This document shows positions 1 through 8,555 of a stretch of 8,555 bases of DNA, piece by piece. The notes under the pieces were generated by a model. The model was not told where the DNA came from and made no database searches. It worked only from the letters and a program-made list of their open reading frames with translations. Position 1 is the stretch's first letter, and each line of letters starts with the position of its first letter. The DNA is from an uncultured Spirochaetaceae bacterium (GTDB taxonomy: Bacteria > Spirochaetota > Spirochaetia > Treponematales > UBA12059): positions 1 through 8,555 of the forward strand of contig CALKWG010000343.1 of NCBI GenBank assembly GCA_938004315.1. The letters are read 5' to 3'. Made by a program: the position numbers and the translations under genes.

Positions 1-541
1 GGTAGAGGCGCAGGGTGGTCGGCTCGGTGGAGACGAAGAAGTCAGGTTTGAAGCCTTCTTCCTCGATGAGGTACTTCCAGCACATGCCGTCGCAGTCCTC
101 TTCTATAATAGAGAACACGAACCAGACGGAGTACTTGCCCTTGTAGCCCAGCTCCTTCAGGATACGGCCGGCGGTGATCATGCTGGCGGCGCCGCCGGTC
201 TGGTCGCTCGTGCCGCGGCCGTGCACCAGGCCGTTCTCGATGTCGCCGGAGAAGGGGTCCTTCTTCCACTGGCTGCGGTCGCCGATGCCCACGGTGTCGA
301 TATGGGCGTCGATGGCCAGGATCTTAGGGCCGCTGCCGACGCGCGCCAAGAGGTTACCTAGGCCGTCGATCCTCACCTCGTCGAAGCCGGCCTTCTCGCA
401 CATGTCCTTGAGGAAGAGGATGCGCTCCTTCTCCTTGTTGCTCATCGCGGGGACCTTGATGATCTCCGACAGGTTTTTAGCGGTCCAGTCCTTGAGGGCC
501 TCGGCCTTAGCCTTGATGTCCTTACCGTTCTGCATGCTCAT
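1..541 (-). CDS. ygeY: YgeY-type M20 family metallohydrolase (3' partial)
   Basis: The first 180 residues of a di-zinc hydrolase of the M20 peptidase/deacylase superfamily; the family is about 400 residues, so the dimerisation domain and C-terminal metal ligands lie beyond base 1. Visible catalytic-domain features are H80 and D82 in DAHIDTVG (metal ligand and its partner Asp), RGTSDQ with bridging ligand D113, and EEDCDG with E147 (general base) and E148 (ligand). The stretches DAHIDTVGIG, GRGTSDQ, EEDCDGMCW and VSTEPT match E. coli YgeY as I recall it, which separates it from ordinary M20 dipeptidases. YgeY is linked with ygeW and ygeX and is proposed to act on a ring-opened purine product, possibly hydrolysing an amide or ureido group. 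The start is ATG, overlapping the ssnA stop as ATGA. It is the last gene seen in the operon, which probably continues. Confidence 0.93.
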   Translation of the reverse strand, partial: MSMQNGKDIKAKAEALKDWTAKNLSEIIKVPAMSNKEKERILFLKDMCEKAGFDEVRIDGLGNLLARVGSGPKILAIDAHIDTVGIGDRSQWKKDPFSGDIENGLVHGRGTSDQTGGAASMITAGRILKELGYKGKYSVWFVFSIIEEDCDGMCWKYLIEEEGFKPDFFVSTEPTTLRLY

Positions 542-1860
542 TTCCTTTCCTCCATGCGCTTCCATAGTCGTATAGTCTGTTCTCGCCCGCGCGCCATGGC
601 GCCGGCGTAATCGAAGTTCGCTTTCCTATTCTCGATGATAAAGCGCCCGGCTACCATGGTGCCCGAGACCATGGCGCTCGATAGGCCGAAGGCCGCGTGG
701 CCGGCGACGTTGCCGTCCAGGAGCGGCGTCGGCGGGTCGTAGTCCCAGAAGGCCAGGTCGGCTTGGTAGCCGGCCTCGACGCGGCCGAACTTCTTGCCGG
801 GGAAGTAGCGCTCCAGGAGGCGGTTGCCGTTCTGCAGCATGCCCAGGAACGCGTCCATCCAGAGCTGGCCGCCTGCGTCGCGATGCTTGAAGAAGGCCCA
901 GTTGGCGCTCTGCAGCATGTCCGAGCCTATGCCGTCGGTGCCCAGGACCGCGTTCCTATAGAGCGGCAATTGATGGTTATAGCCTACGTCGTTGTTCATA
1001 TTGGATTGGGCGTTGTGCGCGAGGAAGGCGTCGCGTTCGTTGACCAAATCCACTTCGTCGCGGCTTAGGTAGAGGCCGTGGCCCAGTATGGTCTTGGCGC
1101 CTAGGAGCCCGGCGTCGTCCAGCCGGCGGCAGATGTCCTTGCCGTACTCGTGGCGGCTATGCACGGCGTCGAACTTGTCCTCGGCCACGTGTATATGGAG
1201 CCCGCGCCCCGTAGCCTTGACCGCGCCGGCCAGGGCGGCGAGCGTGGCATCGCCCACGGTGAAGGGGGCGTGCGCGCCTATGGCCGCCTCGACCAGGGGC
1301 TCCTCGCCGCGCGCGCGCCGGGCGTCCACGGCCTTGGCCCAGCGCAGGTTCTCGGCGACGCCGGCGGCCGCGCCCTCGGCGCCGTTGCGGTCGGTGGTCT
1401 CATAGCAGAGCACGCCGCGCAGTCCCACGGCCTCGAAGCCCTCGGACAAGGCGTCCAGGGAGCCGTCTATGAACTCGGGGCTCGCGTGGTGGTCTACGAC
1501 GCTCGTCACGCCCCAGCGTACCGCCTCCGCGGCGCCGGCCAGGCCCGAGGCGCGCACTAGTCCCTCGTCCAAGGCGCGGTCCAGTCGCCACCAGAGGTGC
1601 TTGAGCTGCTGGGCGAAGTCCTTGCTCGGCGCCACGCCGACCATGAGGCCGCGGGCCAGGGCCGAGTAGAAGTGGTTGTGCGAGCACACCAGGCCCGGGC
1701 TCAGGTAGCCGCCGGGCGAGCGGCGCTCGGCGCCGGGGTAGCGGGCGGCCAAATTTTTGCCGACTTCCTTTATTAGGGCGCCGTCGATGGCCACGTCCAT
1801 GGGCTCGGAGACCGAGCCTGGGCTAAAGTGCAGTATACGGACGTTCTCGATGAGTATCAT
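538..1860 (-). CDS. ssnA: SsnA-type amidohydrolase (chlorohydrolase/guanine-deaminase-like superfamily)
   Basis: This 440-residue amidohydrolase is almost the same length as E. coli SsnA (about 442) and resembles it throughout: VCSHNHFYS, LWWRLDRALDE, TSVVDHHASP, IGAHAPFTV, NMNNDVGYNH and LGTDGIGSDM. The metal site expected of this superfamily is visible: H61 and H63 (SHNHF), H224 with E227 (HIHVAED), H261 (LGHGLYL) and D309 (GTDG). The role is hydrolytic, deaminating a ring amine or opening a cyclic amide. E. coli SsnA was first noted for lowering viability in stationary phase and later tied to selenium-linked purine metabolism. It lies directly downstream of ygfK, as in E. coli, which suggests it acts on the YgfK product. 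The ATG overlaps the ygfK stop as ATGA and has a clear ribosome binding site. Most isoleucine codons here are ATA, odd for such GC-rich DNA. Family assignment is very secure; the substrate is inferred. Confidence 0.95.
   Translation of the reverse strand: MILIENVRILHFSPGSVSEPMDVAIDGALIKEVGKNLAARYPGAERRSPGGYLSPGLVCSHNHFYSALARGLMVGVAPSKDFAQQLKHLWWRLDRALDEGLVRASGLAGAAEAVRWGVTSVVDHHASPEFIDGSLDALSEGFEAVGLRGVLCYETTDRNGAEGAAAGVAENLRWAKAVDARRARGEEPLVEAAIGAHAPFTVGDATLAALAGAVKATGRGLHIHVAEDKFDAVHSRHEYGKDICRRLDDAGLLGAKTILGHGLYLSRDEVDLVNERDAFLAHNAQSNMNNDVGYNHQLPLYRNAVLGTDGIGSDMLQSANWAFFKHRDAGGQLWMDAFLGMLQNGNRLLERYFPGKKFGRVEAGYQADLAFWDYDPPTPLLDGNVAGHAAFGLSSAMVSGTMVAGRFIIENRKANFDYAGAMARGREQTIRLWKRMEERK
549..553 (-). 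promoter_or_regulatory. Ribosome binding site of ygeY
   Basis: GGAGG on the minus strand lies 7 bases before the ATG at 541. It is formed by the ssnA codons for its C-terminal MEERK. A second AAAGGA lies closer and would suit an in-frame ATG at 535, but GGAGG and the ATGA overlap favour 541. Confidence 0.75.
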
Positions 1861-4800
1861 ACGCGTCCTTTCGGAATGAGATAGGCATGCTCGCGCCAGA
1901 CCGTGCGGGCGAGCGATAGGAGGGCGGCCTCGGCCCCGCCGGCCGCGCCGGCAGCCGCGCCGTTCCACGCGTCGAACTCCAAGGCGCGCGCCTCGTCCTT
2001 CTCGCCCGGCTCGGTGCGCAGGAGGAGCGCCGGCTTGTCGGCCGCGCCAACGAAGGCGAAGCCGGCGTTCTTCGAGGCGCGTAGGCCAGCCTCGTCGCCG
2101 AAGAAGGTGGGCTTCCCCAGGTAGGGCTCGCCTTCGTAGGGGCAAAAGAAGCCGCAGTTGCCGCATTCGTTGCACAGCTCGTCCACGTGCAGGATCTGTA
2201 TCGCCTGCTTATAAGGCGCGCCGGCGGCCGCGGCGACCGGAAGGGCCAGATTGGCGCGGTTAGGGCAGACTTCGACGCAGCGCAGGCAGGCTGAGCCGCA
2301 GGAGAGGCAGCGCTCGGCTTCGCGCTTCACGAAGGCGGGATCGCTACCCGGCTCGGCCCGGGCGCTTTCGACGCTCGGCAGGTATTCGCCGCGGCGCGAC
2401 AGCGCGTCATAATCGGGGGCGCCGGGCGCTAGCGGCATGAGCGAGGGCTCGATCCCGGCGGCGCGGAGGATGGCATAGGCGGCCTTGCGGCCGTCCGCCT
2501 CGGCGGCGATGATGCTCGAAGGACCGCGGCGGGCGTCGCCGGCCACGTAGAGCCCGGGCACGGAGCCGGCCATGGTCGCGGGGTCGGTGACGGGCCTGCC
2601 GTCCTTGCCGACGGCCAGGCCGAGGCTGGTAAGCAGGGCCAGGTCGGGCGTCTCGCCCACGGCGGCCACGATCAGGTCGCAGGGGACGGTACGGGCGCGG
2701 GCGCTCGCGACGGGGGCGCGGCGGCCGGAGGCGTCGGGCTCGCCCAACTCCATCTCGCGCACGGTCAGGGTCGGCAGGGCGCCGGCGGCGGCGGGCGCGG
2801 CCGACTCGGGTAACGACAGCTCGTAGTAGGACACGCCGTCTGCCAACGCCGCCTCGAACTCTTCGCGGTCGGCGGGCATCTCGGCCAGGGTGCGGCGGTA
2901 GAGGATGCTCACCGAGGGCTTGCCAGGCAGGCGCGCGGCCACGCGGCTGGCGTCCATAGCGGTATTGCCGCCGCCGGCCACGACGATGGACTTGGCGCCA
3001 GCGTAGCGATTGGCGCGCTTCTCACGGGCGGCGCGGTGGGCCTCTTCTAGGAACTCGAGCGCGTCGACGATTTCGATGCCCTCGCCCTTGAGCGGCAGCT
3101 CGCGCGGCGAGGGGGCGCCGGTCGCTATAACGAAGCTCGTATAGCCTTGGGCCTTAAGCGCGGCCAGGTCTATCTTCCCGTCCCAGCCGCAGACGAACTG
3201 GGCTCCCAAGGCCTTGATGCGCTCGACGTCGGCGGCTATGTCCTCGCGGGCGATGCGGAAGGCCGGGATCACGTCGGCGGGCACGCCGCCGGGACTCGCC
3301 GCCTTATCGAAGACGGTGACCGGGTAGCCCTCCAGCGCCAGGTAATGGGCGGCCGAGAGTCCCGCGGGGCCGGCGCCGAACACGGCCGCCTTGCCCTTGC
3401 CGGCTACGGCCGGCTTCTTTACCGCCGGGATATCGGCGGCGCGGGCGCAGCCCAGCTTCATCGCGCGGATCTCCACCGAGCCTTCATAGTCTACGCGGGC
3501 GCAGGCGTACATGCACTGGTGGTCGCAGAGCACGCCCGTTATGCGGGGCAGGGGGTTATCGGCCAGGACGATGGACAAGGCGCGCTTCGCGTCGCCGGCG
3601 GCCAGGGCCTTCATGTAGGCCGGCGGCTTCTGGGCGGCCGGGCAGGCCTCTACGCAGGGCGCGGCGAAGCAGTCGGTTAGAGGTAGCTTCTTCGCTATCC
3701 GCGTCTCGCCCTTCTTGTAATCGCCGCGGTACTCGGGCGCCTTGAGCGCGTCGGCCGCCAGCGCGGCGAGCTTGGTAGCGTCGGGCCGGGAAGGGAGCTT
3801 ACCCTTCAGCGCTTCGACGGCGGCGCGGGCCATGGGTTCCAGGCGCAGGTAGCCGCCGGGCTTTAAGATATCGGTGGCTACGGTCAGGGGGCCTAAGCCG
3901 GCCTCCAGGCAAGCTTTGGCGTTGACGGCCGAGGCGCCGCCGCAGTAGCTGAAAGGCGGGCAGTCGGGTATGGCCTTGGAAAGCTCTGCGGCCAGCCGGG
4001 TAGTGATCGGGAAGAGGGCGCGGCCGGACATGTAGCGCTCGCCGCCGGGCATGCGCTTGCCGTCGTTGACGTTGGCCAGGGTGTTGGACAGCTTGATGCC
4101 GAAGCGGAGCTTCTTGGCGGCGGCCTTCGCGCGGAGCGAGGCGACTAAGGCCAAAGCCTGCGGGAACTGCAAGTCGTGCTCGAAGTTAGGCCGGGTAATC
4201 GTCACGCGTTCCCAACCGGTCGCGTCCAGGATCTGCCGAGCCGCGTCGTAGCCTAAGAGCGTCGGGTTGAGCTTGACGTAGGTATCGAAGCCCTTATCCT
4301 CGATGAGGTAAGCGCCGATGCGCTCGATCTCGTCGGGCGGGCAGCCGTGCATGGTCGATAGGGTGACCGAGTGGATGGGGGAAGCGGGCATGGCTTGCGC
4401 GACCGCTAAGGCTCGGGCCTGTCCCTCGAGGCCGAAGGCCTTGGCGAAGGCGGCGCCGCGGATTACCTCCTCGGCCTCTTTCAGGCTCGCGGCCCAGACG
4501 GGCGCGCTCTGCGGGTGCTTCGCCGGGGAGCGCATGCCCTCGATGAAGGCGTCGACCTTGGCGCCCTTGATGCCGTCCAAGGTATAGCCGACCGACATGT
4601 TGAACATGAAGCCGCCGGCCGAGCCCAAGGCGGCGCGGAGGACCTGGATGGCTATCCAGCCGCGCAGGTACTCGTCCCGCGCGTCGGCCAAGGTGAGCTC
4701 GGTCGACCACTCGACGTTGTGCCCCTCGTCCAGGGCGTCGATGCAGGGCTTGTCGATGTGCAGGGCGTCGTTCTCCTGCACGGTCTTGAGCTCGAAGACC

Positions 4801-5045
4801 CGCGAGCCGGCCAGCCAGGCGGCCACTAAGTTCGGCGCGATCTGGGTGTGCGGGCCGGCGGCCGGGCCGATCGGCAGGCTGACGCGGTAGCCGTTCACCT
4901 CGAAGCCGGGAGAGGCGGCCTCCAGGGCCAGGATGCGCTCGACGGCTGCCTTCGGTATGTCGTAGGCCGAGCCCTTGGCCGCCCATTCGCCCGCCACGCG
5001 GGTCAGTAGCTCGCGCATGGATAGCGCCTTCATGATCTTGCTCAC
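1857..5045 (-). CDS. ygfK: YgfK-type Fe-S flavoprotein oxidoreductase (putative purine/urate-reducing enzyme)
   Basis: A 1062-residue cytosolic electron-transfer enzyme; E. coli YgfK has about 1032. Order: (1) residues 50-410, a dihydroorotate-dehydrogenase-like barrel, with LPIGPAAGPHTQ (57-68), STMHGCPP (230-237), YVKLNP (256-261) and GGASAVNAKACLEAGLG (369-385); (2) residues 455-535, Cys-rich, with C459, C464, C468, C507, C511 and C515; (3) residues 551-860, a GltD-like FAD/NAD(P)H module with FGAGPAGLSA (556-565), AGGGNTAMD (690-698) and GLYVAGDA (831-838); (4) a ferredoxin tail with C913, C916, C920, C923, C927 and C958, C961, C964, C968. The set of domains is that of dihydropyrimidine dehydrogenase in a different order, suggesting NAD(P)H-driven ring reduction. 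The old name 'selenate reductase subunit' is probably misleading. The open frame extends 22 codons further upstream, but GTG at 5045 gives MSKIM..., which aligns with the E. coli N-terminus as I recall it and overlaps the upstream stop as GTGA. The C-terminal 40 residues are Ala/Gly-rich up to about 1041. Confidence 0.94.
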   Translation of the reverse strand: MSKIMKALSMRELLTRVAGEWAAKGSAYDIPKAAVERILALEAASPGFEVNGYRVSLPIGPAAGPHTQIAPNLVAAWLAGSRVFELKTVQENDALHIDKPCIDALDEGHNVEWSTELTLADARDEYLRGWIAIQVLRAALGSAGGFMFNMSVGYTLDGIKGAKVDAFIEGMRSPAKHPQSAPVWAASLKEAEEVIRGAAFAKAFGLEGQARALAVAQAMPASPIHSVTLSTMHGCPPDEIERIGAYLIEDKGFDTYVKLNPTLLGYDAARQILDATGWERVTITRPNFEHDLQFPQALALVASLRAKAAAKKLRFGIKLSNTLANVNDGKRMPGGERYMSGRALFPITTRLAAELSKAIPDCPPFSYCGGASAVNAKACLEAGLGPLTVATDILKPGGYLRLEPMARAAVEALKGKLPSRPDATKLAALAADALKAPEYRGDYKKGETRIAKKLPLTDCFAAPCVEACPAAQKPPAYMKALAAGDAKRALSIVLADNPLPRITGVLCDHQCMYACARVDYEGSVEIRAMKLGCARAADIPAVKKPAVAGKGKAAVFGAGPAGLSAAHYLALEGYPVTVFDKAASPGGVPADVIPAFRIAREDIAADVERIKALGAQFVCGWDGKIDLAALKAQGYTSFVIATGAPSPRELPLKGEGIEIVDALEFLEEAHRAAREKRANRYAGAKSIVVAGGGNTAMDASRVAARLPGKPSVSILYRRTLAEMPADREEFEAALADGVSYYELSLPESAAPAAAGALPTLTVREMELGEPDASGRRAPVASARARTVPCDLIVAAVGETPDLALLTSLGLAVGKDGRPVTDPATMAGSVPGLYVAGDARRGPSSIIAAEADGRKAAYAILRAAGIEPSLMPLAPGAPDYDALSRRGEYLPSVESARAEPGSDPAFVKREAERCLSCGSACLRCVEVCPNRANLALPVAAAAGAPYKQAIQILHVDELCNECGNCGFFCPYEGEPYLGKPTFFGDEAGLRASKNAGFAFVGAADKPALLLRTEPGEKDEARALEFDAWNGAAAGAAGGAEAALLSLARTVWREHAYLIPKGRV
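1866..1871 (-). promoter_or_regulatory. Ribosome binding site of ssnA
   Basis: AAAGGA on the minus strand lies 5 bases before the ATG at 1860, inside the last codons of ygfK. It fixes the ssnA start and rules out the longer frame that runs upstream to about 2175. Confidence 0.75.
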
Positions 5046-6409
5046 CGGTACCCCCAACAGAGATGTTTTCCGTAGCCTATAGGCGCGGCTATGCCGCCGC
5101 CCGCCACCCATACCGGGCGGCCCCGTACGTAGGTCGCCCGTATCGCGCCCTTAAGGCGCATGCCTTCGAAGGGCGTAATCGTTCCTTTACTTAAGAGCTC
5201 TTCGCCCTTGACCAGGTACTCGCCATCGGGATCGACGAGGACGAAGTCGGCGTCCTTGCCGAGCTCCAGCGAGCCTTTGCCTCCGTCCAGGCCGTAGCGC
5301 GCCGCCGCCGCCCCGCTCGTGGCTCGCAGGAAGGCCGGCAGGGACAGGCGTCCGGCCTTGTAGCCTTCGGCGTACAGATAGGGGAAGAGGGTGCCCGTGC
5401 CGGGGATACCGCCGTAATCGGTCCATACCGAGCCCGTGTTCTTCTCCTTATGAGGGGCCGGCGCGTGGTCGCTGGCTATGAACGAGATGGTCCCGTCGGC
5501 TAGGAGCTTCCACAGCCGCTCGGATTGGCCGCGATGCTTTACCGGAGGCGCGGTCTTCAAGGACGAGCCCTTGTCGGCGAAATCCTCGGCGGAGAAGGCC
5601 AGGTAATGCGGGCAGGTCTCGCAGGTCGCGCCTCCCGCGGCGATGAGCTCGGCGGCTTCGGCGGTGCCGACGTGCACGATATGTAGGGTGCCCTCGCGGC
5701 CGCGGGCCAGGGCCACGGCCGCGGCCGCGGCTACGAGCTCGGCGGACTCCGGGCGCGAGGCCACGTAGTCGTCCCAGGCCGGGTCGCGGTCCTCGGCCAC
5801 GGAGCGCTCCTTCATCGCCTTGGTGGCGGGCAGCACGACGCCCGCGTCCTCCGCGTGCAGGAGGAGAGGGCGGCCTACGGCCTCTGCTTTCGCGGCGGCG
5901 CGGCCGAGGCCGTAGTGGTCCACCGCGGTGAAGGTGTCCATGCCCGAGACCGTATAGCACTTGAATCCGACCACGTAAGGCGCTAGGGCCTCCATGTCTT
6001 CGGCCAGGGCCTGTTCGATGCGGTGGCCGGATACGCCGCCGAAGAGCGCGTAATCGACGACGCTCCGCTTCTCCATCACGTTGAGCTTCTGCCTGAGGTT
6101 TTCGAGCGTCGTCACCGGCGGCAGCGAGGTGCAGGGCATGTCCACGACGGCGGTGACGCCGCCGCGGGCCGCCGCCATGGAGCCGTGGTAGAAGTCCTCG
6201 CGGTGCGTAAAGCCCGGCTCGTTGAAGTGCACGTGCGGGTCGATGGCGCCCGGGTACAGCTCCAAGCCCTCCGCGTCGAGTACTTCCTCGCCCTCCTCGG
6301 GCTCGATGGCGTCGGCGATCTTGACGATCTTCTCGCCCACGATCCGCAGGTCGCGCTTGACCAGGCGCTCATGGCCGGGCAGGGCGCAGCGCACGTTCTT
6401 GACGATCAC
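5042..6409 (-). CDS. Cyclic amidohydrolase of the allantoinase/dihydropyrimidinase type
   Basis: This is a 455-residue metal-dependent hydrolase of cyclic amides or ureides, cytosolic and usually oligomeric. The binuclear metal site is complete: H59 and H61 in the DPHVHFNEPG motif, K150 in VGFKCY (the lysine carboxylated in this family), H185 in LLLHAED, H246 in IVHVGT, and D314 in ASDHAP. The spacing closely follows E. coli allantoinase AllB (H59, H61, K146, H186, H242, D315, from memory). CETCPHYL (263-270) and TPFEGMRLKGAI near the end are also typical. It sits where E. coli has the hydantoinase HyuA, but the DPHVHFNEPG and CPHYL regions look closer to allantoinase than to HyuA. In this operon it probably opens a ring of a reduced purine or hydantoin-like intermediate. 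Start: GTG with a good ribosome binding site, overlapping the upstream stop as GTGA. The exact substrate is unknown; allantoin, a hydantoin or a dihydropyrimidine-like ring are all possible. Confidence 0.92.
   Translation of the reverse strand: MIVKNVRCALPGHERLVKRDLRIVGEKIVKIADAIEPEEGEEVLDAEGLELYPGAIDPHVHFNEPGFTHREDFYHGSMAAARGGVTAVVDMPCTSLPPVTTLENLRQKLNVMEKRSVVDYALFGGVSGHRIEQALAEDMEALAPYVVGFKCYTVSGMDTFTAVDHYGLGRAAAKAEAVGRPLLLHAEDAGVVLPATKAMKERSVAEDRDPAWDDYVASRPESAELVAAAAAVALARGREGTLHIVHVGTAEAAELIAAGGATCETCPHYLAFSAEDFADKGSSLKTAPPVKHRGQSERLWKLLADGTISFIASDHAPAPHKEKNTGSVWTDYGGIPGTGTLFPYLYAEGYKAGRLSLPAFLRATSGAAAARYGLDGGKGSLELGKDADFVLVDPDGEYLVKGEELLSKGTITPFEGMRLKGAIRATYVRGRPVWVAGGGIAAPIGYGKHLCWGYR
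5051..5055 (-). promoter_or_regulatory. Weak ribosome binding site of ygfK
   Basis: A GGGGG run on the minus strand lies 5 bases before the GTG at 5045. It is a poor match to the consensus, so the start rests mainly on the GTGA overlap and on alignment to E. coli YgfK. A second candidate site, GGTGAG at 5046-5041, lies 7 bases before an in-frame ATG at 5033. Confidence 0.4.
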
Positions 6410-8555
6410 GATCCGGCTCCTTTCGTAACGGCCGGCGAGCCTTCGCGCGCGACCCAGGCGCGCTCGGGGATACGCTCGCCGCAGAGGAACATGAGCGCCT
6501 TCTCCGGCGTCATGGGTATGCTGTAGAAGCCCTCGGCATCCGGCCGGGCGGCCCGCAGGGCATCCAGCACGGCGAAGTAGCCAGCCATGCCGTACATGAG
6601 CGGCGGCTCTCCTACCGCCTTGGAGTTGGCCACGGTCTTGGGGTTAGGCTTATCGAAGAACTCCACGTCCATGCGCGGCATGAAGTGTGCGTCGGGCAGC
6701 TTGTAGGTCGAGAGGGTATTAGCCAGGAGCCGCCCCGCCTCGTCGAACTTGAGCTCCTCGAGCGCCGCCCATCCTAGGCCCTGGGCGAAGCCGCCCTCGA
6801 TCTGCCCAAGGTCAACGACGGGGTCGATGGAGTTCGCGATGTCGTGCACGATGACGGCGTCGTCGAAGCGGTAGTAGCCGCGGAGCGTATCGACGGTGGC
6901 GCTCACCACCGCGCAGCCGTAGACGTGGTATAAGAAGGGCGTGCCCTGCTCCTTGGCCAGGTCGAAGAAGAGGCCGGGCGTGGCGTAGAAGCCGTGGGCG
7001 GAGAGGTCCACGCGGCGCTCGTGCGCGAAGGCGACGAGCTCGGCGAAGGATAACCCGGCGTCGGCGCCGTTACGATAGACCCGTCCGTCCCTGAGCTCGA
7101 TCTCATCGGAGACGGTGCCGAGCTTCTCTGCCGCCGAGGCGACGAGGCGCTTACGTAGCTCCAGGCAGGCGACCTGGGCGGCCATGGCGTTGATGTCCGC
7201 GCCGGTGCTGGCCGCCGTGGGCATGGTATTGGCCACCGTGGTGGTGCGCGTGCTCTCGATGCGTACGGAGGCGACCTGGGCGCCCAGGGCCGCCGCGGCG
7301 ACCAAGGCTATCTTCCGCCCCACGCCCTGGCCCATCTCGATGGCGCCGGTAGAGACGCTGACCGAGCCGTCGTTATAGACGTGCACCAGCGAGCCGCCCT
7401 GGTTCATCATGATCTTGGTAAAGCTGATGCCGAAGCAGAGCGGGAAGACGGCGGCGCCGCGCTTGGAATCTCGATGCGAGGCGTTGTACTCGTCGATGCG
7501 CTTACGCAGACCCGCATAGTCGGCCTTGGCCAGGCAGCGCTCGACCGTGGCGCGGGCCCTGACGTCGGTCGCGGTCATGCCGTAGTGGAAGCTGTCTCCC
7601 TCGGATAAGAGGTTCTTCAGCTGTATCTCCGCCGGGTCCTTGCCCATGGCGCGGGCGGCTTTCTCGATGGCGCTCTCGATGACGAAGAGGCCCTGCGGAC
7701 CGCCGAAGCCCCGGAAGGCGGTGAAGGGCACGAGGTTCGTACGGCACATGGAGCCGGTCACGCGGACGTTCGGGATATGGTAGGCGCCCGCGGCGTGGAA
7801 CAGGGTGCGCGGCAATATGGCCGGCGATAGGTCGCAGGCCGCCCCGGCGTTCTGGTAATAGTCCGCTTCGAAGGCCAGGATCGTCCCGTCGGCCTTGAGG
7901 CCGATCTTGAAGTCGGACGAGTAGGGGTGGCGCTTGCCGGTGGCCTGCATATCGTCGCGACGGTTTAAATAAATCTTAACCGGACGCCCGGTCTTAACCG
8001 CCCCTAAGGCGGCGAGGGCCGCCCAGCCGTTGGCCTGGTCCTCCTTGCCGCCGAACGCGCCGCCTAAGCGCCTGGTCTCGATCTCCACCAGGTTCATGGG
8101 GACGCCCAGGACGCGGGCCGCTATCTTCTGGGTGGCCGAGGGGGCTTGGGTGCCCGAGACGATCCGGGCGCCGCCGGAGTCGTCGGCCCAGGCTATCGCC
8201 CCTTGGGTCTCCAGGTAGACGTGCTCCTGGCCGCCGTTGTCGACGCGCCCGGTGAAGATATAGTCGCAGTCCTTATAAGCCGCTTCGGGGTCGCCCATGC
8301 GCTGGGTCCGAGGTGATAGGATGAGCTTACCGAGCCTGTAGGCTTCGCGCTCGTCGACTATTGGCCGCAGGTCTTCGCGCCCCAGGATCTTGACGCGGGC
8401 GGCGGCGCGGCGCGCCAGGCTCCGCGACGAGGCGAGGACCAGGGCTAATACCTGGCCTTGGAAATGCCATTCGCCGTCGGCCAAGAGGGGTTCGTCCTCG
8501 ACCGCCGTGCCCAGTTGATTTTTACCCGGCACGTCGTCCTTCGTCAGGAAGACGA
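6406..8555 (-). CDS. Xanthine dehydrogenase-type molybdenum hydroxylase, molybdopterin-binding subunit (5' partial)
   Basis: This is the catalytic Mo-cofactor subunit of a cytoplasmic purine hydroxylase. The frame is open to the window edge, so the true start lies outside; 715 residues are visible, numbered here from the codon at 8553. The visible start (VFLTKDDVPGKNQ) is the end of the a/b-hammerhead domain, followed by the large Mo-binding domain. By alignment from memory, the substrate and Mo contacts of bovine xanthine oxidoreductase are all present: Q109 in GGQEHVYLE (Q767), E171 in GGAFGGKE (E802), R281 in AFRGFGGPQ (R880), F378-T379 in FGISFT (F1009-T1010), Q409 in EMGQG (Q1040) and the catalytic base E649 in KAVGEPP (E1261). 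This favours a purine substrate over an aldehyde. No FAD or [2Fe-2S] domain is visible; these must be upstream, as separate subunits or, for [2Fe-2S], as an N-terminal fusion as in E. coli XdhD. The stop TGA overlaps the next gene's GTG. Whether it is a selenium-dependent hydroxylase cannot be judged. Confidence 0.93.
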   Translation of the reverse strand, partial: VFLTKDDVPGKNQLGTAVEDEPLLADGEWHFQGQVLALVLASSRSLARRAAARVKILGREDLRPIVDEREAYRLGKLILSPRTQRMGDPEAAYKDCDYIFTGRVDNGGQEHVYLETQGAIAWADDSGGARIVSGTQAPSATQKIAARVLGVPMNLVEIETRRLGGAFGGKEDQANGWAALAALGAVKTGRPVKIYLNRRDDMQATGKRHPYSSDFKIGLKADGTILAFEADYYQNAGAACDLSPAILPRTLFHAAGAYHIPNVRVTGSMCRTNLVPFTAFRGFGGPQGLFVIESAIEKAARAMGKDPAEIQLKNLLSEGDSFHYGMTATDVRARATVERCLAKADYAGLRKRIDEYNASHRDSKRGAAVFPLCFGISFTKIMMNQGGSLVHVYNDGSVSVSTGAIEMGQGVGRKIALVAAAALGAQVASVRIESTRTTTVANTMPTAASTGADINAMAAQVACLELRKRLVASAAEKLGTVSDEIELRDGRVYRNGADAGLSFAELVAFAHERRVDLSAHGFYATPGLFFDLAKEQGTPFLYHVYGCAVVSATVDTLRGYYRFDDAVIVHDIANSIDPVVDLGQIEGGFAQGLGWAALEELKFDEAGRLLANTLSTYKLPDAHFMPRMDVEFFDKPNPKTVANSKAVGEPPLMYGMAGYFAVLDALRAARPDAEGFYSIPMTPEKALMFLCGERIPERAWVAREGSPAVTKGAGS
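6417..6424 (-). promoter_or_regulatory. Ribosome binding site of the cyclic amidohydrolase gene
   Basis: On the minus strand this reads GAAAGGAG, with the AGGAG core 7 bases before the GTG at 6409. It lies inside the last codons of the Mo-hydroxylase gene. It supports the GTG start and coupled translation. Confidence 0.75.

Follow-up and report, generated by a model that had tools for sequence, protein, structure and literature searches.

The closest described counterpart of the genes considered here is the reductive urate pathway of Escherichia coli, to which YgfK, SsnA and YgeY have been assigned (Li 2025, PMC12507026). In E. coli, the corresponding genes form two blocks, ygeWXY-hyuA-yqeA and ygfK-ssnA-ygfM-xdhD, which are separated by yqeB, yqeC and mocA. 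A variant with UacX and UacY has been reported in C. difficile, in which YgfK and YgeW are replaced (PMC12507026). In the literature, this pathway is treated as a trait of the gut that might be used against gout, and a commentary raises the question of whether its origin lies there or is more ancient (PMC12990295). Here, we analyze positions 1 to 8,555 of contig CALKWG010000343.1 from an uncultured Spirochaetaceae bacterium. This 8,555-base stretch (hereafter, the window) carries the genes of YgfK, SsnA and YgeY together with those of a molybdenum (Mo) hydroxylase subunit and a cyclic amidohydrolase. An earlier note on this DNA, prepared from its letters alone, had rightly described the E. coli blocks and had placed YgfK, SsnA and YgeY in the reductive urate pathway, as the published work supports.

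We propose, with a probability of roughly 0.7, that the longer operon found in close relatives allows an anaerobic spirochaete to oxidise purines to urate through an ordinary xanthine dehydrogenase (XDH), and then to break urate down reductively to pyruvate and ammonia. This proposal draws on gene content, gene order, family placement and active-site residues, all directly observed. The reductive urate reading of the earlier note is retained for the most part and amended on three points: the Mo enzyme is a canonical XDH and not XdhD, the ring hydrolase is related to allantoinase and not HyuA, and gene order tracks substrate flow only loosely. The window is filled by five tightly packed genes on the minus strand, both end genes being cut by its edges:

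6406 to 8553, minus strand: Mo-binding subunit of xanthine dehydrogenase (XdhB type), 5' end cut, with about 60 N-terminal residues beyond the edge.
5042 to 6409, minus strand: AllB-like (allantoinase-related) cyclic amidohydrolase in the place of HyuA, with a TIGR03178 match.
1857 to 5033, minus strand: ygfK, NAD(P)H-dependent iron–sulfur (Fe-S) flavoenzyme, over the TIGR03315 cut-off.
538 to 1860, minus strand: ssnA, amidohydrolase, over the TIGR03314 cut-off.
2 to 541, minus strand: ygeY, M20 hydrolase (NF009555), with its 3' half beyond the window.
6406 to 6409, minus strand: 4-base overlap (GTGA) of the Mo subunit and AllB-like genes.
1857 to 1860, minus strand: 4-base overlap (ATGA) of ygfK and ssnA.
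538 to 541, minus strand: 4-base overlap (ATGA) of ssnA and ygeY, with GGAGG just upstream.

The amidohydrolase and ygfK genes lie 8 bases apart, and an in-frame GTG start would make an overlap there too. The compact five-gene operon claimed by the earlier note is borne out by this layout, with 4-base overlaps at three of the four junctions, from which a single overlapping transcript is a fair reading. The G+C content of the window is 62–73%.

The window YgfK reaches 1003.5 bits against TIGR03315 (cut-off 835.3) and, across 1012 aligned residues, shares 42.5% identity with the E. coli protein, the C-terminal Fe-S cysteines being kept. Similarly, SsnA, the marker of the pathway, scores 524 bits against TIGR03314 (cut-off 455.5) and is 54% identical to its E. 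coli counterpart. YgeY is a 188-residue fragment whose NF009555 score of 197.7 bits (E 2.9e-58, profile positions 4–177 of 399) falls short of the cut-off set for the complete protein because the window edge truncates the gene, the copies of relatives being full-length. It matches YgeY models best and shares 46% identity with E. coli YgeY over 178 residues.

A scan of 84,980 species genomes yielded 364 relatives, from which 80 YgfK loci were kept. The first 34 relatives (33 with spirochaete names) were used for genome-level counts and 35 loci (L001–L034 and L060) for gene order, unknown genes being named on representatives. The window YgfK is closest to spirochaete genomes, with 74% identity for the top segment (L028). 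In spirochaete relatives, the operon comprises 12–13 genes in the order adenine deaminase, XDH small subunit (2Fe-2S and flavin adenine dinucleotide, FAD), XDH Mo subunit, AllB-like amidohydrolase, YgfK, SsnA, YgeY, a threonine-synthase-like pyridoxal phosphate (PLP) enzyme (PALP1), a cysteine-synthase-like PLP enzyme (PALP2) and 8-oxoguanine deaminase, followed by YgfM-XdhD and then YgeW, or by YgeW alone. The five window genes occur in the same order in 24 of the 35 loci, many of the others being interrupted by contig ends, which argues against a chance arrangement. The stretch of ten genes that runs from adenine deaminase through oxoguanine deaminase is found in order on a single contig in 18 of the 35.

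Neighbors were counted as the next named gene, ignoring unnamed frames and skipping places less than 2500 bases from a contig end where the partner was absent. On this basis, adenine deaminase adjoins XDH in 21 of 22 places and the XDH small subunit adjoins the Mo subunit in 24 of 24, so that the FAD and 2Fe-2S subunit sought by the earlier note beyond the window's end is indeed found beside the Mo subunit in relatives. The Mo and AllB-like genes are adjacent in 27/27 places seen from Mo and 27/28 seen from AllB-like, and AllB-like and YgfK in 30/30 seen from AllB-like and 30/32 seen from YgfK. The following pairs are YgfK-SsnA (32/32), SsnA-YgeY (31/31), YgeY-PALP1 (30/30), PALP1-PALP2 (25/25) and PALP2-oxoguanine deaminase (22/22). 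Past oxoguanine deaminase, seen in 22 loci, the next gene is YgfM-XdhD in 15 and YgeW in six, the remaining locus having YgfM where the contig ends. YgeW lies downstream of XdhD on the same strand in all 20 XdhD regions read, which were picked from the 24 XdhD-positive genomes after genome searches for XdhD and YgeW. L024 is without adenine deaminase. Among the other genes sought beyond the ends of the window, YgeW (E<1e-60) is present in 29 of the 34 genomes, and a permease of the xanthine/uracil type lies inside the locus in eight of 35. One of the relatives, L006 (DYPP01000089.1), is labelled Treponema denticola; its YgfK has 67% identity and groups with the window's relatives, and the species label looks questionable.

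The Mo enzyme of the window resembles the xanthine dehydrogenases of Rhodobacter capsulatus and bovine origin, which are its best PDB matches (R. capsulatus XDH, 1jro_B, E 6e-145, being the top solved relative), but unlike them it is located within an anaerobic urate-reduction operon. It is a fragment, with the first 62 profile positions outside the window, and scores 716.2 bits against the XdhB model TIGR02965 (cut-off 849.5); against the XdhD model TIGR03313, it reaches 133.6 bits for a cut-off of 1101.9. Active-site residues were read in an alignment of 116 rows (proteins of at least 600 residues, including references, among them E. coli XdhD and XdhA). Duplicates were removed and the counts omit window-type rows under 500 bits (9 distinct) and XdhD rows under 700 bits (3 distinct), whose patterns differ, as well as 20 distinct rows nearer E. 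coli XdhD, split enzymes included (11 Gln-Arg-Glu-E606, 7 Gln-Gln-E606, 2 others). Glu-Arg-Glu, the residue set for holding and activating xanthine in known xanthine dehydrogenases, is kept in all 26 distinct subunits of the window type, that of the window among them and also aligned to 1jro_B, and all are gapped at the column of E. coli XdhD E606. In contrast, all 23 distinct XdhD orthologs from relatives carry Gln-Gln plus an E606 counterpart, as does E. coli XdhD, in which E606 has been proposed to orient urate (PMC12507026). Because the canonical Glu-Arg-Glu is kept and the E606 counterpart is absent, the window enzyme is likely an ordinary XDH subunit, making urate from hypoxanthine and xanthine rather than reducing urate.

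The opposite possibility is that this XdhB-type enzyme is itself the urate reductase, forming yanthine (or running in reverse to xanthine) and rendering XdhD unnecessary. XdhD (at least 1000 bits) is present in 24 of the 34 relatives and was not found at this threshold in ten, an absence which, like the others in these genome counts, is soft because nearly all these genomes are metagenome drafts; at least six of the ten (L018–L021, L023 and L033) retain the whole block, and reversibility of XDH has been described (PMC12507026). Against this possibility stand the active-site residues of the 26 window-type subunits and the presence, in all ten XdhD-less genomes versus four of the 24 XdhD-positive ones (kinship uncorrected), of a separate, split XdhD-like Mo subunit (303–428 bits, about 40% identity to XdhD). 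Gln-Arg-Glu and an E606 counterpart are found in all eight of the 14 split subunits that were read, and in two genomes the gene adjoins pathway genes (AllB-like, oxoguanine deaminase, YgeW and PALP2 in L150; PALP2 in L151). We therefore consider urate reduction by the window enzyme unlikely and regard the split enzyme, from its residues, as a candidate substitute urate reductase. The five nearest neighbors of the window on the YgfK tree (L032, L001, L008, L002 and L003) are all XdhD-positive. At loci L149–L156 (e.g., L149:3246-7262, L150:4806-7584), the split XdhD-like Mo subunit occurs with a 2Fe-2S subunit, and a YqeB/XdhC-like gene comes after in three of the eight.

The selD and yqeB genes, also sought by the earlier note, were found in part of the relatives: SelD is over its cut-off in 18 of 34 and YqeB in 13, or 16 counting contig-cut pieces. 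Both are confined to XdhD-positive genomes (SelD 18/24 versus 0/10; YqeB, with contig-cut pieces, 16/24 versus 0/10), a pattern that would be predicted were XdhD one of the selenium-dependent Mo hydroxylases (PMC2276186); on the YgfK tree, this link amounts to four independent contrasts, 2.6 concordant and 0 opposite, and is not significant. One in-frame TGA is found in 11 of the 18 over-cut-off SelD genes, as expected of a selenoprotein SelD.

The window amidohydrolase scores 357.9 bits against the allantoinase model TIGR03178 (cut-off 357.85) and 205.8 bits against the D-hydantoinase model. Its top solved relatives are bacterial allantoinases (AllB; 8hfd, 3e74 and 3hm7), with metal-site and FNEPG-type motifs common to the alignments. 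Unlike AllB, it belongs to a separate, fully supported long-stem clade with reductive urate gene neighbors. In a tree of 54 rows (drawn mainly from YgfK loci, with 10 additional regions from elsewhere and two genes of E. coli), a single clade on the side of the allantoinases unites 34 copies found at YgfK loci (support 100/100, stem 1.01), while HyuA and annotated dihydropyrimidinases lie beyond a 100/98 branch, including the HyuA of YgfK locus L055 (Lucifera butyrica). The clade may also contain copies outside YgfK clusters, since 120 database homologs were left out of the tree. The window enzyme thus falls with allantoinases rather than with HyuA, and HyuA-like proteins (E<=1e-60) occur in three of the 34 genomes. 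The hydantoin of the pathway, ureidomethyl-hydantoin, has one CH2 more than allantoin, so that a relative of allantoinase could reasonably take over from HyuA. From its neighborhood and this chemistry, the AllB-like enzyme likely opens ureidomethyl-hydantoin in HyuA's stead. At L025, the AllB-like gene directly upstream of ygfK is split into two open frames, possibly by an assembly error.

This placement on the allantoinase side, at the very cut-off of TIGR03178, also suits an oxidative operon in which urate made by XDH would be oxidised further, the AllB-like enzyme would be a genuine allantoinase, and allantoate would be hydrolysed by YgeY, which shares the M20 family with allantoate amidohydrolase. 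Such an operon is improbable: it leaves no role for YgfK and SsnA, YgeY fits YgeY models best, and a uricase domain was found in one of the 34 genomes by a search which covered this domain only and no other urate oxidases. The single uricase-domain gene (G017:C52:8911-9771; L143, L144) may reflect either draft contamination or a real oxidative route. Still less probable is a reductive pyrimidine degradation locus, with YgfK acting like dihydropyrimidine dehydrogenase and the AllB-like enzyme as dihydropyrimidinase. The window YgfK does contain the Fer4_20 domain of dihydropyrimidine dehydrogenase, and SsnA has been called PydB-related (PMC12507026), but the same operon encodes adenine deaminase, xanthine dehydrogenase and 8-oxoguanine deaminase, and the AllB-like enzyme groups apart from annotated dihydropyrimidinases. 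A selenate-reductase or selenium-metabolism locus, evoked by the old names of the YgfK and SsnA families (TIGR03315 and TIGR03314) and by the restriction of selD and yqeB to XdhD-positive relatives, is very improbable, as E. coli YgfK and SsnA have been assayed on yanthine (PMC12507026), the selenium link is better explained by a selenium-dependent XdhD (PMC2276186) and the tree contrasts are not significant.

The expectation of a ygeX gene beyond the window fared poorly, a strong YgeX being found in just two of the 34 relatives (12 at E<=1e-3, weak), whereas PALP1 (E<=1e-20) is present in 33. Across the 80 YgfK loci, many of them incomplete, PALP1 occurs in 43, YgeX in two and both in none (thresholds 150 and 120 bits). 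By its place and the absence of YgeX, PALP1 is a candidate diaminopropionate lyase. PALP2 (L007:17018-18475) belongs to a large family of PLP enzymes some 485 residues long, at least 8000 candidates passing E 1e-30, and has oxoguanine deaminase as its next gene in all 22 places.

In the proposed purine-to-pyruvate route, adenine deaminase would convert adenine to hypoxanthine, which the XdhA-XdhB pair would oxidise to xanthine and then urate, 8-oxoguanine deaminase being a possible extra source of urate. XdhD-YgfM, or the split XdhD-like enzyme, would remove the C6 oxygen of urate to give yanthine. By analogy with E. coli, from which the chemistry of the XdhD, YgfK, SsnA, YgeW and YgeY steps would be carried over (PMC12507026), YgfK is predicted to reduce (dearomatise) yanthine and SsnA to open the reduced pyrimidine ring, yielding ureidomethyl-hydantoin, whose hydantoin ring the AllB-like enzyme would open. 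YgeW would then take off one ureido group as carbamoyl phosphate, with ATP formed by carbamate kinase (over its cut-off in 29 of the 34 relatives, elsewhere in the genome than the operon), and YgeY is predicted to remove the other en route to diaminopropionate; published accounts disagree on which ureido group leaves first (PMC12990295). Finally, PALP1 would cleave diaminopropionate, with pyruvate as end product. The relay between XDH and XdhD is not new, since the two have already been reported to act in succession in E. coli (PMC12507026). As the XDH reaction yields two electrons and that of XdhD consumes two, the isomerisation of xanthine to yanthine would occur without net redox cost. The idea that gene order follows substrate flow holds only loosely: across 11 genes, the rank correlation is 0.58 (p 0.06, the analyst having ranked the steps), but the gene of the AllB-like enzyme stands ahead of those of YgfK and SsnA, and the last positions are taken by XdhD and YgeW.

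Several observations weigh against this route. The presence of XdhD, YgeW and the remaining outer genes in the window's own host is deduced from relatives, and one of the ten relatives without XdhD, L006, falls within the group of 12 rows that contains the window on the YgfK tree. The window AllB-like enzyme exceeds the allantoinase cut-off by just 0.05 bits, and the operon copy is under the TIGR03178 cut-off in all 12 genomes searched of the 34 (315–352 bits), though it is the best allantoinase-model match there. Close AllB-like relatives are named allantoinase or dihydroorotase in source annotations, and the substrate assigned to this enzyme from neighborhood and chemistry is a guess. Similarly, the sequence and fold of PALP1 point to threonine synthase, YgeX and PALP1 are both present in two genomes, and PALP2 is given no step in the proposed route. 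Regarding gene order, YgfK is preceded in L006 and L031 by a permease gene and not by the AllB-like gene, XDH being missing from this place too in L006, and L017 has the AllB-like gene without XDH before it. Gaps between PALP1 and PALP2 range from 38 to 2653 bases and, owing to the largest, a single transcript is not sure everywhere.

Collectively, the locus shares YgfK, SsnA and YgeY with the E. coli cluster (PMC12507026) in the window itself, and YgfM-XdhD and YgeW in most relatives. Unlike in E. coli, the spirochaete genes form one operon instead of two blocks, into which canonical XDH, adenine deaminase and 8-oxoguanine deaminase are integrated, with an AllB-like enzyme for HyuA, a threonine-synthase-like PLP enzyme for YgeX and carbamate kinase elsewhere in the genome. 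As in the C. difficile variant, pathway steps appear swapped between lineages, but here YgfK and, in relatives, YgeW are kept while HyuA and YgeX are replaced. The accessible part of PMC12507026 lists Spirochaetota among SsnA-bearing phyla and colors gene neighborhoods without describing this operon. No description of this variant was found in open-literature titles and abstracts, and earlier mention in Liu 2023 or Liu 2025 is possible. We regard it as a new version of an established pathway, in which oxidation of purines to urate and reduction of urate are joined, with stand-in enzymes, in one operon.

Few record titles of the relatives name a habitat, and the readable ones suggest non-gut sites: a lake sediment (L026, 'LacPavin SED2'), a cave (L006, 'SulCav') and Rectinema subterraneum (L033). 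From these names, a near-complete single-operon pathway seems to exist outside guts too. More tentatively, spirochaetes, some of them plainly non-gut, may possess a self-contained purine-to-pyruvate operon which combines a redox-neutral conversion of xanthine to yanthine (C8 oxygen added, C6 oxygen removed) with two re-purposed enzymes, an allantoinase relative and a threonine-synthase relative. The AllB-like enzyme and PALP1 are offered as two candidate replacement enzymes, within what would be a natural single-operon design starting from adenine and xanthine instead of urate.

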